From Saprospiraceae bacterium (GTDB taxonomy: Bacteria; Bacteroidota; Bacteroidia; Chitinophagales; Saprospiraceae), in contig JANWXM010000008.1 in NCBI GenBank assembly GCA_025055285.1, positions 1 to 64,000 of the forward strand: a stretch of 64,000 bases of DNA, in the 5' to 3' direction. Both the position numbers and the translations under genes were made by a program. The notes under the pieces were generated by a model. It did not search any database and was not told the DNA's origin. It worked only from the letters and a program-made list of their open reading frames with translations. Shown here in pieces: positions 5,750 to 44,399 of this stretch (its first letter is position 1; every line of letters begins with the position of its first letter).

Positions 5750-7029
5750 TGGCTGACCCATCTGTAGCGATACTCTCAGAAGGCACTCCAGCTATCCAGC
5801 TGGAGCCTCAGCGCCGTCGCCTAACCAGTCTTTTGTTGTTCATATTGCTCTACACTATTCTCGCAGGAGCCGTGCGCAAGTGGATTTTGTTGGGCGGGCC
5901 AGCCAGCAATATCTTGCTTTTAGGTCAGTTACTTTTGCCGTGGCTGTTCTATTTGACAGCTCCTGGGCAGCGAAGGCGGTATTTTCCCATCTTATTAATT
6001 TTCGGTGTTTTGCTGCTTTTTATGGCCTTAAACCCTCTCAACCATACCCTTTATCATGGCATCTTCGGCGTTTTGTTGCACATGGGGTGGTGGCTGATGG
6101 GATTTCATTATTTAGAAAACCGAAGTTTATATTGCTGGAATAGGTTGTACAAACTTATTGGCATTCTTCTCATTCTTGAGACAATATTATCGATAATTCA
6201 ATACAACCTCCCTAGAATGCACTTTATCAATCGCTATGCCACAGAAGGCCCTGTAAGTATTGCCTTTGTGGGAGAGGCAGCTCGCGTTACGGGCACCTTT
6301 AGCTTCGTATCAGGCTATGCAGCCTGGCTACTGTTTATCAATTTGTGGACGTGGAGTGTAGCTGTATGGAAACAGAACATATGGTTACTTACTGGCCTTA
6401 CAACAATAGGCGTTGCAGACAGCCTCCTCTCAGGAAGTCGTATGAGCTTGGTCATCACCCTCCTTTTGGCTGTTTTTGCCTACGCGAACCTTGTCAAGCG
6501 GATACCCTTTCACCGAGTATTTGCCGTGCTGATCATAGGACTGATTGTAGGTGCATGGGCTTTTCGGAACAGCGCATTCTTGCAGTTGTCGTGGTCTAAT
6601 TTTGCATCGCGCATTCAGGACGGTTTTCGCGATGAAGAATATGGCCGCCGCACCATTGGCGTCCTGAATGAAGTAATTAATTTTAAAGGCGATTACGCCC
6701 TTCTAGGTACAGGTCTGGGCGGTACGTATCAGGGTGCAAGAGCTATATGGGGCGAATCTTACTACCTGCAAAAATACGGCGGTTACGAAGAGGAGCCTGA
6801 ACGCATTATGTTAGAGGGCGGTTATGTTCTGTTTTTAGGACGCGCACTGTTGCTCTGGTTCTTTTTGCGAGGGCTCTACATGCCCTTGACGGCGAAAGTG
6901 CTGTTCTTTGTACTCATCACCTTCTTCGCTCCTATCGTTTTCAACGTCTATAACCTCATATTTCTAGCCCTAGGGCTCAGTGCTGTAGATTGGAGTTATC
7001 GCTGTCGAGCCCGTTCCCAACACCCATGA
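5746..7029 (+). CDS. O-antigen ligase/polymerase-like integral membrane protein
   Basis: A 427-residue protein with about ten to eleven hydrophobic helices and one large external loop (about residues 280-360) containing charged residues and the segment GTGLGGTYQGARAIWGE. This matches the Wzy/WaaL topology. Such proteins polymerise or ligate lipid-linked oligosaccharide at the periplasmic face. It sits between three glycosyltransferases with ATGA overlaps at both ends (5746 and 7026), which supports a polysaccharide role. Polymerase and ligase cannot be told apart from sequence alone. No flippase is present in this operon. Confidence 0.75.
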   Translation: MMADPSVAILSEGTPAIQLEPQRRRLTSLLLFILLYTILAGAVRKWILLGGPASNILLLGQLLLPWLFYLTAPGQRRRYFPILLIFGVLLLFMALNPLNHTLYHGIFGVLLHMGWWLMGFHYLENRSLYCWNRLYKLIGILLILETILSIIQYNLPRMHFINRYATEGPVSIAFVGEAARVTGTFSFVSGYAAWLLFINLWTWSVAVWKQNIWLLTGLTTIGVADSLLSGSRMSLVITLLLAVFAYANLVKRIPFHRVFAVLIIGLIVGAWAFRNSAFLQLSWSNFASRIQDGFRDEEYGRRTIGVLNEVINFKGDYALLGTGLGGTYQGARAIWGESYYLQKYGGYEEEPERIMLEGGYVLFLGRALLLWFFLRGLYMPLTAKVLFFVLITFFAPIVFNVYNLIFLALGLSAVDWSYRCRARSQHP

Positions 7030-8213
7030 AGCGACTCGTTTTCTTATATTCACACCCTATACAGTATTTATCGCCTCTAAGTCGCTTAGCTCACGAGGAA
7101 GGCACCTTCGATGTCTGGACTATTTACTGCTCGCCTCAGGGCGTGCAACCGGTTTTGGACAAGGAATTTACACAGATCATTAAGTGGGACATTCCTATCT
7201 TAGAGGGCTATCGGAGCGTTTTTTTAAAAAACTGGCGTGGCTCGCGCCGAGGATTAAGCGGCTTTTGGAGCTTAGTAAATCCATCCATTGTAGGATGGCT
7301 GTGGAGTGCACCAAGGGGGATCCTCGTTGTCCACGGATGGGCATATTTCACCCATGTGTTGGCCATCGTATGCGGAAAGATAATGGGCTATCGAGTGGTT
7401 CTTCGAGGCGAAAGCAACTGGCGACACGAACGATTGCTCCCATGGTGGAAACGCCAGCTTAAACGCCTCGTCTTAGGAAAGGGACTCTTTCAGTTTGTAG
7501 ATTACTTTCTCTTTATCGGAATCGAAAATCGCCGCTTCTACGAGCAGATCGGGGTCCCTCCGCATCGCCTTCTCTTTGCGCCTTACGGCGTTGATAACAG
7601 CCGTTTTTCGGCCCAATGGATGGCGCTGAGGGAAAAAAAGGCCGACCTAAGACGGCAGCTTGGGCTGCCCGAGCGCGCCCAAGTAGTTTTATTCTCTGGG
7701 AAGCTCATTCCCAAAAAAAGGCCGCTTGACCTCCTAGAGGCCTTTGCTCTACTGAAAACGTTCAATGTCTTTCTAGTGTATGTTGGCGATGGCCCTTTGC
7801 GCCCGGCGCTCGAGGTGCGCGCTCGAGCCCTGGGCCTTGCCGAGAGCATGCGCATTGAAGGATTTGTCAATCAGAGCGCTATTGGCCTGTATTACGCCGC
7901 GGCTGATGTCTTCGTTATGTGTTCGGGGGTGGGCGAAACTTGGGGCCTCTCGACCAATGAAGCAATGAACTTTGCCCTGCCTATCGTTCTGTCCGACCTA
8001 ACCGGTTGTGCTGCCGACCTTTGCCGCTTTGGCGTAAACGGCTTCGTCTTTCCAACAGGCGACGTAGAAGCTTTAGCAGCCCATCTGCGGTATCTTCTCG
8101 CCTTGCCATCTGAACTGCGCCAGGCTATGGGCGAAGCATCGCGCACTCTAGTGGCAGCCTATAATTATCAGGAAGTTTTAGCCAGCTTGAAAAAAATAAG
8201 CCAACACACATGA
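7026..8213 (+). CDS. GT4-family glycosyltransferase
   Basis: A 395-residue GT-B enzyme. ATG 7026 overlaps the previous stop in ATGA and starts MKRLVFLYSHPIQYLSPL; the in-frame ATG at 6990 lies deep inside the previous gene and is rejected. The acceptor domain includes the N-terminal HPIQY motif seen in several capsule and O-antigen transferases. The donor domain has FSGKLIPKKRPLDLLEAF and the ExxxxxxxE element in ETWGLSTNEAM. Third gene of the operon at 4739-9388, coupled on both sides. The sugar is unknown. Confidence 0.87.
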   Translation: MKRLVFLYSHPIQYLSPLSRLAHEEGTFDVWTIYCSPQGVQPVLDKEFTQIIKWDIPILEGYRSVFLKNWRGSRRGLSGFWSLVNPSIVGWLWSAPRGILVVHGWAYFTHVLAIVCGKIMGYRVVLRGESNWRHERLLPWWKRQLKRLVLGKGLFQFVDYFLFIGIENRRFYEQIGVPPHRLLFAPYGVDNSRFSAQWMALREKKADLRRQLGLPERAQVVLFSGKLIPKKRPLDLLEAFALLKTFNVFLVYVGDGPLRPALEVRARALGLAESMRIEGFVNQSAIGLYYAAADVFVMCSGVGETWGLSTNEAMNFALPIVLSDLTGCAADLCRFGVNGFVFPTGDVEALAAHLRYLLALPSELRQAMGEASRTLVAAYNYQEVLASLKKISQHT

Positions 8214-9388
8214 GGGTCGTTGTAGCGCATTCTGACCGCCAACACTGCAATCAATTGCTGCTTGCCCTAGCCCAAAAGGGATGGTTAGAGCGGTTCTATA
8301 CGCTCTTCTCTGGAAATAAATTTGCTAGATGGCAATACCTCTTTCCGGAAAGTCTTCGCAAACAACTAAATAAGCGCACAATAGATGCCTCGTTAAGCCC
8401 ATACATTGAGCATTTTCCCTTGCTTTTTCTCACTGATAGGCTGATAAATAGGGACCTTTTGGCACGCATACGCTCGAGTTATGAATGGTTTGACCGCGCC
8501 GTTGCAAAGCGCTTACCTCGCTGCAATTTTCAGCTCATCATAACGTATGAAAACGCCAACCGCCATACAATGCGCGCCGCAAAGGCGCTAAACAAGACTA
8601 CTGTACTCGACTTGGCTCAAATCCACCCTTATGACATCGCGACCTATGGGCTCGACTATATGACGGAAAAAGAGTGGCGCTTCGAAGTAACATTTGTCAA
8701 CCCTCGTAAAGAGGAAGCTCTAGCTCACACGGATTACGTCCTTGCGCTCTCTAAGTTTGCTGCCGACTCGATGTTGCGCCACGGCTGGCCGGCTAAGCGC
8801 CTATTTACCGTGCCTTTAGGAGTAGATCTTGGGCGTTTTTGGGCTAAAACTGATTACCGCCCTCGAAAACCGCTGCGCCTGTTGTTCGTTGGCACTGTGC
8901 TTCGCCGAAAGGGTATTGGAATTCTGCTGGAAGCAATGCGCCGCCTCCCTCCTGGCATGGCTGAATTAACCATCATTGGCCCAATGGCCGACGCGCGCGA
9001 ACTGTTGCACAAACAAAGCAGATATTGCCGCTATATCTCCTTTACGCCTCACGAAGCCTTGGCCAACCATTATCGCCAAGCAGACCTATTTGTCTTTCCA
9101 TCGTTGCTCGACTCTTGGGCTCAAACGGTCTTGGAAGCCATGGCCTGTGGTACTCCCGCTATTGTCAGCGAACGCACGGGCGCTCGCGACGCCGTCGAAC
9201 AAGGTGGTGGCTGGGTTATCCCTGCCAACGACCCGCAAGCCCTGACGCAGGTCATACTGCAATGCGCTGAAAAACCTGAAATGATCGCTGCCGTCGGGCG
9301 GCGTGCTGCACTCATTGCCCAGCAATACTCATGGGCTACCTATCAAACACGCCTCTTAGCAGCGTTGCAGAGTATGATACCTCTTTAG
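8210..9388 (+). CDS. GT4-family glycosyltransferase, last gene of polysaccharide operon
   Basis: A 392-residue GT-B protein. It begins MRVVVAHSDRQHCNQLLLAL at an ATGA overlap with the preceding gene. The donor-site half carries LLFVGTVLRRKGIGILLEAM and LDSWAQTVLEAMACGTP; Asp replaces the first Glu of the ExxxxxxxE motif. Residues 50-170 are lineage-specific in character and may set the acceptor. The operon ends here; the next gene is convergent, with an 10-bp gap and no terminator hairpin that I can see. Confidence 0.85.
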   Translation: MRVVVAHSDRQHCNQLLLALAQKGWLERFYTLFSGNKFARWQYLFPESLRKQLNKRTIDASLSPYIEHFPLLFLTDRLINRDLLARIRSSYEWFDRAVAKRLPRCNFQLIITYENANRHTMRAAKALNKTTVLDLAQIHPYDIATYGLDYMTEKEWRFEVTFVNPRKEEALAHTDYVLALSKFAADSMLRHGWPAKRLFTVPLGVDLGRFWAKTDYRPRKPLRLLFVGTVLRRKGIGILLEAMRRLPPGMAELTIIGPMADARELLHKQSRYCRYISFTPHEALANHYRQADLFVFPSLLDSWAQTVLEAMACGTPAIVSERTGARDAVEQGGGWVIPANDPQALTQVILQCAEKPEMIAAVGRRAALIAQQYSWATYQTRLLAALQSMIPL

Positions 9389-42490: not shown

Positions 42491-42543
42491 AGGGATGAAA
42501 TGGCTTAACCGAAAGATAATATTTTCTTAGGGAACGCCATTCT

Positions 42544-42551
42544 TACCTTTG
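42544..42551 (+). promoter_or_regulatory. -7 box for the betaine-lipid gene pair
   Basis: TACCTTTG followed by C. It overlaps the TTG at 42549, so that codon cannot start translation of this transcript; ATG 42576 lies 24 nt downstream. Confidence 0.5.
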
Positions 42552-42575
42552 CTTAGAGATGATCCCTACCCTGTC

Positions 42576-43745
42576 ATGGGCTTGATACACTCGCTGAACG
42601 AGCGCATCTTTCACCATATACACAACAAGAGTTTGGTATATAACGCTTGTTGGGAGGATCCTAGGTGCGATCGGCAGCTGCTTCAATTGACACCCATGAG
42701 TCGAGTAGTAGTGCTCACTAGTGCTGGGTGTAATGCGCTAGATTATCTACTCGACGACGTCGCTCATATTTCCTGCGTAGACGTCAATCCGCGCCAAAAT
42801 GCATTGCTGCAATTTAAGGTTGCCTTGTTTGAAGGAAGCGATTACGACACGCTTTTTCGCTTCTTTGGAGACGGGAAATTCGACAGGGCGCGCGAAGTAT
42901 TCTACGACTGTGTTTTTCCGCGTTTGCACGATGCCTTTTCTCGTCGGTGGTGGGAATACTTTATCGATGCCTTCTCAGGTCGAGGCCTTCGGCCCTCGTT
43001 CTACTGGCACGGCAGCAGTGGTGTAGCCGCCTGGCTGATTCGGCAGTGGTTGCGCGTTCGTCCATCCGCTTGGAAAATGGCTCAGGCCCTTTTCGCTGCC
43101 AAAGACATGGAAGAACAGGCTTACTACTACGATAAACTAGAGCCTTGCTTTTTTACGCCTTTGTTCACATGGGCGCTGCGTCAGCATGCATTTCAGAGTA
43201 TGTTGGGCGTGCCTACGAGCCAGCAGAAACTTGCCGCTGCACCTTACTCTAGTGGTCTAGTCGGCTATTTCGTTGATTGTTTGCGCAGAGTGCTTCGCAA
43301 CTTACCCCTTCAGGACAACTACTTTTGGAAACTTTATTTTTATGGGCACTACACTTCTGCGTGTTGCCCAAACTATCTGAAGAGCGAGTACTTCAGCGTA
43401 ATTCGACAACGCGTATCGCGCATAAGCACGCATACCTCGACGTTGAGCGAATTTCTAAAGCAGCACCCCGGTCAATATACGCACTTTGTGCTGCTTGACC
43501 ATCAAGATTGGATGGCAAGAGAACCTGCTATGGGTTCTGCCCTGGAAGAAGAATGGCGCCTTATTTTGGACAACGCTGCTCCAGGAGCCTATGTGTTGAT
43601 GCGGTCGGCTGCACGCGAACTCGACTTCTTACCTAACTTTATCCAGCGACGAGTTGTTTTCGACATCGAGACAGCGGAGCGCGTCCACCGCCAGGATCGC
43701 GTAGGTACTTATGCCAGCACGTGGATTGGTCAAATCGTCCTGTGA
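42576..43745 (+). CDS. BtaA-like S-adenosylmethionine:diacylglycerol 3-amino-3-carboxypropyltransferase (DUF3419)
   Basis: A 389-residue protein. It shows the family opening LVYNACWEDPRCDRQLLQL (WEDP motif), an AdoMet-binding region VVLTSAGCNALDYLLDD followed by VDVNPRQNALLQFK, and the late FVLLDHQDWM motif. BtaA moves the aminocarboxypropyl group of AdoMet to diacylglycerol, making DGHS, the first step of betaine lipid (DGTS) synthesis at the membrane. Length fits bacterial BtaA (about 400). The next gene, directly abutting, is a BtaB-like N-methyltransferase, which strongly supports the assignment. Betaine lipids are best known from alphaproteobacteria, algae and fungi. ATG 42576 is chosen because the promoter covers the upstream TTG 42549. 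Confidence 0.82.
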   Translation: MGLIHSLNERIFHHIHNKSLVYNACWEDPRCDRQLLQLTPMSRVVVLTSAGCNALDYLLDDVAHISCVDVNPRQNALLQFKVALFEGSDYDTLFRFFGDGKFDRAREVFYDCVFPRLHDAFSRRWWEYFIDAFSGRGLRPSFYWHGSSGVAAWLIRQWLRVRPSAWKMAQALFAAKDMEEQAYYYDKLEPCFFTPLFTWALRQHAFQSMLGVPTSQQKLAAAPYSSGLVGYFVDCLRRVLRNLPLQDNYFWKLYFYGHYTSACCPNYLKSEYFSVIRQRVSRISTHTSTLSEFLKQHPGQYTHFVLLDHQDWMAREPAMGSALEEEWRLILDNAAPGAYVLMRSAARELDFLPNFIQRRVVFDIETAERVHRQDRVGTYASTWIGQIVL

Positions 43746-44399
43746 ATGAATCCTCCACAAGAACATACGCCCTCCCAGCCACAAATTATTCAACAATATT
43801 ACCGGTGGCATGCGCGGATTTACGACGCTACGCGATGGTGCTTCTTGTTCGGCCGACGCCGCTTACTTTCCCTATTGCCTCAACGACCGGCGCTTCGCGT
43901 CGTCGAAATCGGTTGTGGCACAGGCGTCAATCTCAGGCGCTTAGCTCGCCAACACCCGGACTGGCAACTCACAGGCATCGACGTATCGCGACATATGCTC
44001 GACCGAGCGTTCAAAGCTCTAAAGCCCTACACTATGCGCGTCTTTTTGTTGGAGAAAAGCTACGGTAAAGGGCATTTTCACTTAAAGGAAAAAGCCGATG
44101 TTATTCTGTTTTCGTATTCTTTGACGATGATCAATCCAGGCTTTGAAGCGGCCATTGAACAAGCTCACGACGATTTAAAGCCGGGCGGCTGTATTGCAGT
44201 TGTGGATTTTCACGATACGCTTTTTTCGTGGTTTCGTCAGTGGATGCGCCTCAATCATGTGCGCATGGAAGGACATCTTTTGCCTGTATTGAAACAACAT
44301 TTTGAAACGGAGCGATGTGAAATACGCCGCGCCTTTGGCGGGTTGTGGCGATACATGATTTTCGTTGGGTCAAAACCGAGATCGTCGGCAGATGCATGA
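43746..44399 (+). CDS. BtaB-like AdoMet N-methyltransferase
   Basis: A 217-residue class I methyltransferase starting immediately after the btaA-like stop. Residues 18-36 hold the BtaB-type YRWHARIYDATRWCFLFGRR; the AdoMet site is VVEIGCGTGVNL (about 53-64), followed by the acidic LTGIDVSRHMLDRA and the post-I motif VILFSYSLTMI. BtaB trimethylates DGHS to the betaine lipid DGTS. Size and neighbour match the Rhodobacter pair. Another lipid or quinone methyltransferase role cannot be excluded from the methyltransferase alone. Confidence 0.8.
   Translation: MNPPQEHTPSQPQIIQQYYRWHARIYDATRWCFLFGRRRLLSLLPQRPALRVVEIGCGTGVNLRRLARQHPDWQLTGIDVSRHMLDRAFKALKPYTMRVFLLEKSYGKGHFHLKEKADVILFSYSLTMINPGFEAAIEQAHDDLKPGGCIAVVDFHDTLFSWFRQWMRLNHVRMEGHLLPVLKQHFETERCEIRRAFGGLWRYMIFVGSKPRSSADA

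Follow-up and report, generated by a model that had tools for sequence, protein, structure and literature searches.

A very probable betaine-lipid synthesis gene pair in Saprospiraceae, preceded by a promoter repeat shared with phosphate genes

The window, the whole 64,000-nt stretch of DNA analysed here, was contig C88 of the 3.6-Mb genome of an uncultured Saprospiraceae bacterium (93 contigs, completeness 100). The following features were located in the window:

42504..42530, plus strand, Pho-box-like direct repeat with an 11-bp period (CTTAACC GAAAG ATAATA TTTTC TTAGGG), conserved before btaA in related loci
42544..42551, plus strand, TACCTTTG, a -7-type promoter element (TAnnTTTG), from the upstream alignment of the window with L002, L003 and L006
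42576..43745, plus strand, btaA-like gene (DUF3419) of 389 aa, assigned by PF11899, BLASTP, tree and AlphaFold2 model
43746..44399, plus strand, btaB-like gene of 217 aa, assigned by class I methyltransferase profiles and identity to rhizobial methyltransferases

The btaA-like frame closed with a TGA stop at 43743-43745 and could start at ATG 42576 or at an alternative TTG (42549). ATG 42576 was the better start, since the promoter box at 42544-42551 overlapped TTG 42549; it also agreed with the ORF length of 389 aa in L002 and L003, both close relatives. The ATG of the btaB-like gene (43746) lay directly 3' of this TGA, with 0 nt between the genes. A first-pass annotation of this DNA had described a DUF3419 gene abutting a methyltransferase gene under one promoter box. 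Both ORFs were found at that place, together with the motifs it had named, WEDP (in YNACWEDPR), DHQDWM and YDATRWCFLFGRR, and the box TACCTTTG at 42544-42551. The source genome had a single DUF3419 match and a single BtaB match (cut-off 1e-15). The closest named relatives were the Saprospiraceae MAGs L002, L003 and L006, with 73-76% identity. A foreign island was considered and rejected: the GC/GC3 values of the two genes (0.507/0.544 and 0.498/0.509) were similar to those of three neighbour genes and of the window (0.500/0.504), and the window protein stayed among the Saprospiraceae in the tree described below.

Profile search showed that PF11899 (DUF3419) matched the window BtaA at profile positions 4-382 of 385 (1.3e-100; 337.7 bits, cut-off 28.2), and the protein has a full-length DUF3419 domain; no NCBIfam model fired on it. 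The reference loci were those of R. leguminosarum (L113), Sinorhizobium sp. M103 (L116), Shinella (L112) and Sinorhizobium sp. RAC02 (L115), with the methyltransferase of S. meliloti Ak57 in L111 as the fifth; these rhizobial references are relatives by sequence and gene order, distinct from the assayed BtaA/BtaB proteins. The S. meliloti Ak57 record is labelled pSymB yet is 3.7 Mb long, and its btaA frame looks interrupted (L111:4911-5651). BLASTP of the window BtaA against the R. leguminosarum DUF3419 protein, encoded upstream of a BtaB-like gene, gave 30% identity over 360 columns (6e-40). Alignment showed that WEDP, GCN, D-x-NP, DNYF and D-x-QDWM were common to the window BtaA and the proteins of L113 and L116.

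The AlphaFold2 model of the window BtaA was confident (pLDDT 93.5, pTM 0.92; 34 sequences). The invariant residues G51, N53, D69 and N71 were located in the strand-helix-strand that starts the core, an arrangement that would fit a SAM-binding Rossmann-like core. A Foldseek search of the PDB with the model had no hit at E <= 0.001; among the 50 matches listed, an uncharacterised Leptospira protein (6ulo, 1.1e-3) ranked first, and the others were mostly methyltransferases with low TM-scores. Single-sequence and profile searches of the PDB returned no credible solved relative of BtaA, the one match being at chance level (E 0.45).

The window BtaB matched generic class I methyltransferase models, with Methyltransf_25 on top (2.1e-15), while NCBIfam gave, among the 25 matches listed, only other families below their cut-offs. 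BLASTP showed 31% identity to the methyltransferase of L113 (8e-23) and 33% to that of L111 (2e-27). Among 11 aligned BtaB proteins, two of them rhizobial, the invariant positions were Y26-D27, R30, G36-R37, E54, G56, G58-T59-G60, N62 and D154-F155. By sequence, the protein is a class I SAM methyltransferase whose homology to rhizobial BtaB covers most of its length.

The comparison set of 146 entries consisted of 80 of 86 named loci from a scan of bacterial and archaeal genomes, 59 further loci (several of which duplicate named ones), six rhizobial records and the window. After removal of the window copy of L001, of L110, of the broken L111 and of identical proteins, 128 proteins remained. 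The tree was a quick IQ-TREE run with SH-aLRT support only, its root unknown, and its divergent part is uncertain because of long branches among the divergent DUF3419 proteins. These proteins (L107-L109, L114 and L144) were split from the rhizobial and other BtaA proteins with an SH-aLRT of 99 on the separating branches. PF11899 scores were 146 and 212 bits for the two divergent proteins that were scanned and 338-381 bits for the window protein and two from rhizobia. The BtaA group had two branches, one with the rhizobial BtaA proteins, L127 and L129, the other with the remainder, including the window; L127 and L129 belong to the same phylum as the window. Saprospiraceae BtaA enzymes made a branch of their own. 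The window enzyme was off the rhizobial branch, and its own branch held no assayed member among those examined.

Desulfobacteraceae BtaA proteins (L020, L034, L039 and L046) shared the large branch of the window. Betaine lipids rise under phosphate limitation in Desulfatibacillum alkenivorans, as cited in the available text of PMC12927429; that species' own protein was outside the tree. At the level of profile and tree, the window BtaA grouped with pathway BtaA, stood for by rhizobial orthologues only. The refuting case named in the first-pass annotation, a place in a DUF3419 clade without aminocarboxypropyl activity, was not what the sequences gave, since the window protein grouped with BtaB-linked enzymes, off the divergent branch; the tree rejected the divergent clade as its home.

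Of the 128 distinct DUF3419 proteins, 113, spread over several phyla, had a BtaB-like match on the same strand that started no more than 260 nt downstream; this count includes three BtaB matches cut short near a contig or stretch end (L044, L048 and L098). BtaB is genetically linked to BtaA, and chance adjacency of the two genes was rejected on this count. The first-pass annotation had rested its case on exact abutment, which did not hold as a general trait: 0 nt recurred in L002, L006, L068 and L069, and in most other relatives the genes overlapped by a few bases or had short gaps. The conserved trait is adjacency of btaA and btaB. The MAG record of L068 is titled Klebsiella pneumoniae; its btaAB groups with uncultured Gammaproteobacteria, and the title is probably wrong.

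The 15 proteins outside the 113 were L017, L018, L050-L052, L063, L078-L080, L107-L109, L114, L139 and L144. L063 and L080 are from planctomycetes, the contig of L063 ending inside an open frame, and in L139 the methyltransferase match was present but displaced. The Flammeovirgaceae loci L017 and L018 had a BtaB match elsewhere in the genome (G454 and G453, respectively), so the enzyme pair was retained there without linkage. Among 36 genomes labelled as same-genus, a DUF3419 match over the full length and with 329 bits or more was present in 25; 7 had none, and the remaining 4 had no more than a weak or fragmentary match or a divergent DUF3419 protein. In a phylum-wide draw, some DUF3419 match was found in 46 of 395 genomes.

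According to the available text of PMC3972451, R. sphaeroides and S. meliloti make DGTS via BtaA and BtaB. Judged on the rhizobial orthologues, the window pair has the same two families, gene order and adjacency as the Sinorhizobium meliloti/Rhodobacter sphaeroides system, and the proteins align over most of their length with core motifs in common; however, identity is only about 30% and the tree branch is separate. BTA1 of algae and fungi has the same two activities in the description accessible in PMC10685587, by which alone it was compared, but is a fused bifunctional protein in eukaryotes, whereas the window pair is two separate genes. Profile, pairwise, synteny and tree tests all agreed with the BtaA/BtaB reading, by which the window pair very probably makes DGTS and adds a new case to a known kind of system. 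The first gene is predicted to encode an S-adenosylmethionine:diacylglycerol 3-amino-3-carboxypropyltransferase, and the second a SAM-dependent N-methyltransferase of diacylglyceryl-homoserine.

When the upstream DNA of the window, L002, L003 and L006 was aligned, a conserved block emerged that lay outside the coding start and had the promoter box after it. The box has the form TAnnTTTG, which we take to be the Bacteroidota -7 element consensus; it was also seen upstream in several other Saprospiraceae loci, and L003 had TACCTTTA where the window had TACCTTTG. It started 39-40 nt after the repeat start in the window, L002 and L006. A wider comparison split the conserved block into half-sites with an 11-bp period, clearest in L084 (TTAACC, ATAACC and TTAACC at 11-bp steps). 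In the window repeat, half-site 1 was perfect, while half-sites 2 and 3 each matched TTAACC at 3 of 6 positions. No good repeat was found before btaA in L009, L010, L011 and L106. The extended pattern YTTAAYYNNNNNWTAAYNNNNNNYTWR occurred twice in the 3.6-Mb source genome, once at 42504 and once between genes that resembled, by eye, hutH and a gene for an OmpH-like protein; the reversed control occurred once. A first, narrow repeat pattern also matched, with one mismatch, before a 342-aa gene in the source genome.

A matrix was built from 14 btaA sites only, chosen by eye after the upstream regions of 24 loci had been viewed; L007-L011, L083, L090, L098, L102 and L106 were left out, L008 having just 20 nt upstream. 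The window score of 26.3 (next in the window 7.3) is no test, because the window site was in the training set. The 14 pst loci were kept out of the training. For these, 21 of 25 strong same-genus genomes were asked for PstB, of which 13 were positive at a strict cut-off, and the source genome was added. Some of the 14 are near relatives, so an author-chosen, less redundant subset of 10 loci was also used.

With the 30-position matrix, the top-scoring place was the pstS promoter in 6 of the 14 pst loci, and in the pst locus of the source genome the pstS site ranked third. The matrix was shortened to 19 positions after this outcome had been seen. With 19 positions and 300 bp, the pstS site was unmatched by any control window in 9 of 14 loci; L157, L158, L159, L164 and L165 fell short, the last of them because its site is at -323, and the later scan took 350 bp. 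When 350 bp before pstS were scanned, between 0 and 77 of 1000 dinucleotide shuffles reached the best site in 11 of 14 loci; the repeats of the other three were weak (L158, 115; L157, 119; L159, 501 of 1000 dinucleotide shuffles). Fisher's combined p for the pstS repeat was 1.1e-10 (14 loci) and 5.4e-9 (10 less redundant loci). The true matrix passed a 1-in-60 cut in 6 of 10 loci, compared with at most 2 of 10 for each of 60 column-permuted matrices. The promoter repeat is common to btaA and pst genes.

The two-half-site pattern YTTAAYNNNNNYTTAAYM gave five matches in the source genome, against five in the reversed control. One lay 286 nt before the pstS ORF start (pstSCAB) and one 100 nt before a PhoX-family gene (PF05787, 3e-23), which is a candidate member of the Pho regulon:

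L170:1-1419 (source genome C11), minus strand, PhoX-family gene (PF05787) with a CTTAAC repeat upstream

The other three matches lay inside an ORF, 80 nt before a MORN/caspase-domain gene, and at a place beyond which the fetched stretch had no same-strand ORF of more than 90 aa.

These results are good evidence that btaAB has a promoter element in common with phosphate genes, and the shared repeat suggests that btaAB may be switched on by phosphate shortage. What is new here is the btaA control region with an 11-bp-period repeat common to phosphate genes. The phosphate link had merely been assumed in the first-pass annotation; the repeat common to btaA, pstS and the PhoX-family gene now lends it cis-regulatory support. 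The likeness to the PhoB-controlled Pho regulon is the 11-bp-period direct repeat before pst genes, the PhoX-family gene and btaA, but the half-site here is CTTAAYC, whereas the enterobacterial Pho-box half-site is CTGTCAT. Putative Pho boxes are described in the available text of PMC4796936 for plcP gene clusters, one cluster type of which has btaA and btaB. No description of a Bacteroidota Pho box was found in the accessible part of the open literature.

We consider it highly likely, from the sequence evidence, that the pair is an operon for betaine-lipid synthesis under phosphate regulation. When phosphate runs short, a PhoB-type regulator would bind the repeat at 42504-42530, and binding would raise transcription from the box at 42544-42551. 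By homology, BtaA would transfer the 3-amino-3-carboxypropyl group of S-adenosylmethionine to diacylglycerol, giving diacylglyceryl-homoserine, and BtaB would methylate its amino group three times, giving DGTS. The zwitterionic, phosphorus-free DGTS would then take the place of phospholipid.

The alternative that survives best, although unlikely, is that a real btaAB pair serves constitutive membrane make-up (for example, temperature or the balance of zwitterionic lipids) and that the repeat belongs to another regulator. OmpR-type regulators generally bind direct repeats of 10-11 bp, and the two-half-site pattern was no commoner in the source genome than its reversed control; however, a matrix from btaA promoters finds pstS promoters, and the repeat also precedes the PhoX-family gene, both of which argue against it. 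Quite improbable is an aminocarboxypropyltransferase and N-methyltransferase pair that uses another acceptor, such as an ether- or sphingoid-type lipid of Bacteroidota, or that methylates incompletely, so that a homoserine lipid other than DGTS is made. The separate branch of the Saprospiraceae enzymes and the roughly 30% identity of the window to rhizobial BtaA would allow for this, as would the unusual membrane lipids of Bacteroidota, but BtaA and BtaB stay together across many phyla with diverse membranes, and the core motifs are common to the window and rhizobial proteins. That the first gene encodes a DUF3419 protein of other function, accidentally beside a methyltransferase, is very improbable: divergent DUF3419 proteins with other neighbours are known (L107-L109 and L114), but they stand on a separate branch with lower PF11899 scores, and the pairing is kept in 113 of 128.

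Besides the phosphate-regulated pair of the window, other partners of BtaA were observed. A gene for a protein of about 385 aa lay directly after btaA in two loci labelled delta proteobacterium (L050 and L051) and two from Verrucomicrobia (L078 and L079), and in L144 a different arrangement was found:

L050:4327-5490, L051:5114-6277, L078:7166-8320 and L079 near 7004-8320 (longer ORF), after btaA, unannotated protein of about 385 aa
L144:1432-3294, minus strand, PEMT-type methyltransferase domain (PF04191, 2.5e-6) fused in front of DUF3419, in a genome of the phylum Bacteroidota

The contig of L052 ended before the partner gene, and this locus was grouped with L050, L051, L078 and L079 by its near-identical BtaA. 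The proteins of about 385 aa of L050 and L078 were 40% identical and had no Pfam match at E <= 0.01; the AlphaFold2 model of this partner was poor (pLDDT 46.6; 3 sequences). By eye it looks like a GNAT or acyltransferase protein, possibly a new head-group step. No BtaB match at 1e-15 was found in the genomes of L050-L052, L078, L079 and L144, assemblies that may be incomplete, while the source genome and three other pair-carrying genomes gave one match each in the same search. BtaB has apparently been replaced in the L144 fusion.

Tentatively, BtaA might serve as a head-group platform, with its second step replaced on more than one occasion, between BtaB, a fused membrane PEMT-type methyltransferase and the protein of about 385 aa. 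In this scheme, BtaA would work with BtaB under a Bacteroidota Pho box in Saprospiraceae, and with the partner of about 385 aa in Myxococcota-like and Verrucomicrobiota lineages with no BtaB match. If the scheme is true, that partner would yield an N-acylated or otherwise modified homoserine lipid, new to description.

A calcineurin-like metallophosphoesterase adjoined btaA in the Flammeovirgaceae loci (L017:7236-8399 and L018:7238-8410; Pfam on L017) and might release diacylglycerol. The metallophosphoesterase adjoining btaA in Flexithrix, used as the single candidate query for a diacylglycerol-releasing phospholipase C (PlcP), had no match in the source genome, which is a weak test. Flexithrix dorotheae DSM 6795 has btaA and a btaB match that is not linked to it. 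Divergent DUF3419 proteins lay beside a CTP_transf_1-like protein (L107:1471-3200; under the Pfam cut-off) and beside ketoacyl-ACP synthase III and CoF synthetase (L114:814-6062), and probably perform other chemistry.

The first-pass annotation had called the pathway little explored in Bacteroidota, which stands only in part. PMC10667739 reports betaine lipids, to its authors' knowledge, in five groups that include Bacteroidetes, and its accessible text cites Sebastian et al. 2016 and Yao et al. 2016, among others, for the groups. In the available text of Sebastian et al. 2016 (PMC4796936), different aminolipids are described for the flavobacterium Dokdonia sp. MED134, and the legend of one figure includes an uncharacterised betaine lipid. 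For the family the claim kept its ground, as no paper on a btaAB pair in Saprospiraceae was found in the accessible open literature, a scope with most subscription journals outside it.

These results describe an ordinary btaAB pair in a group where little has been described, with evidence for phosphate control that is new and testable. Algae or alphaproteobacteria are often named as the makers of DGTS in the environment; the DUF3419 match in 25 of 36 same-genus genomes makes Saprospiraceae plausible sources as well. A textbook phosphate-saving lipid route would be extended to Saprospiraceae by a concrete gene pair and a promoter repeat, and the shared repeat may offer a testable Pho box for this bacterial group.
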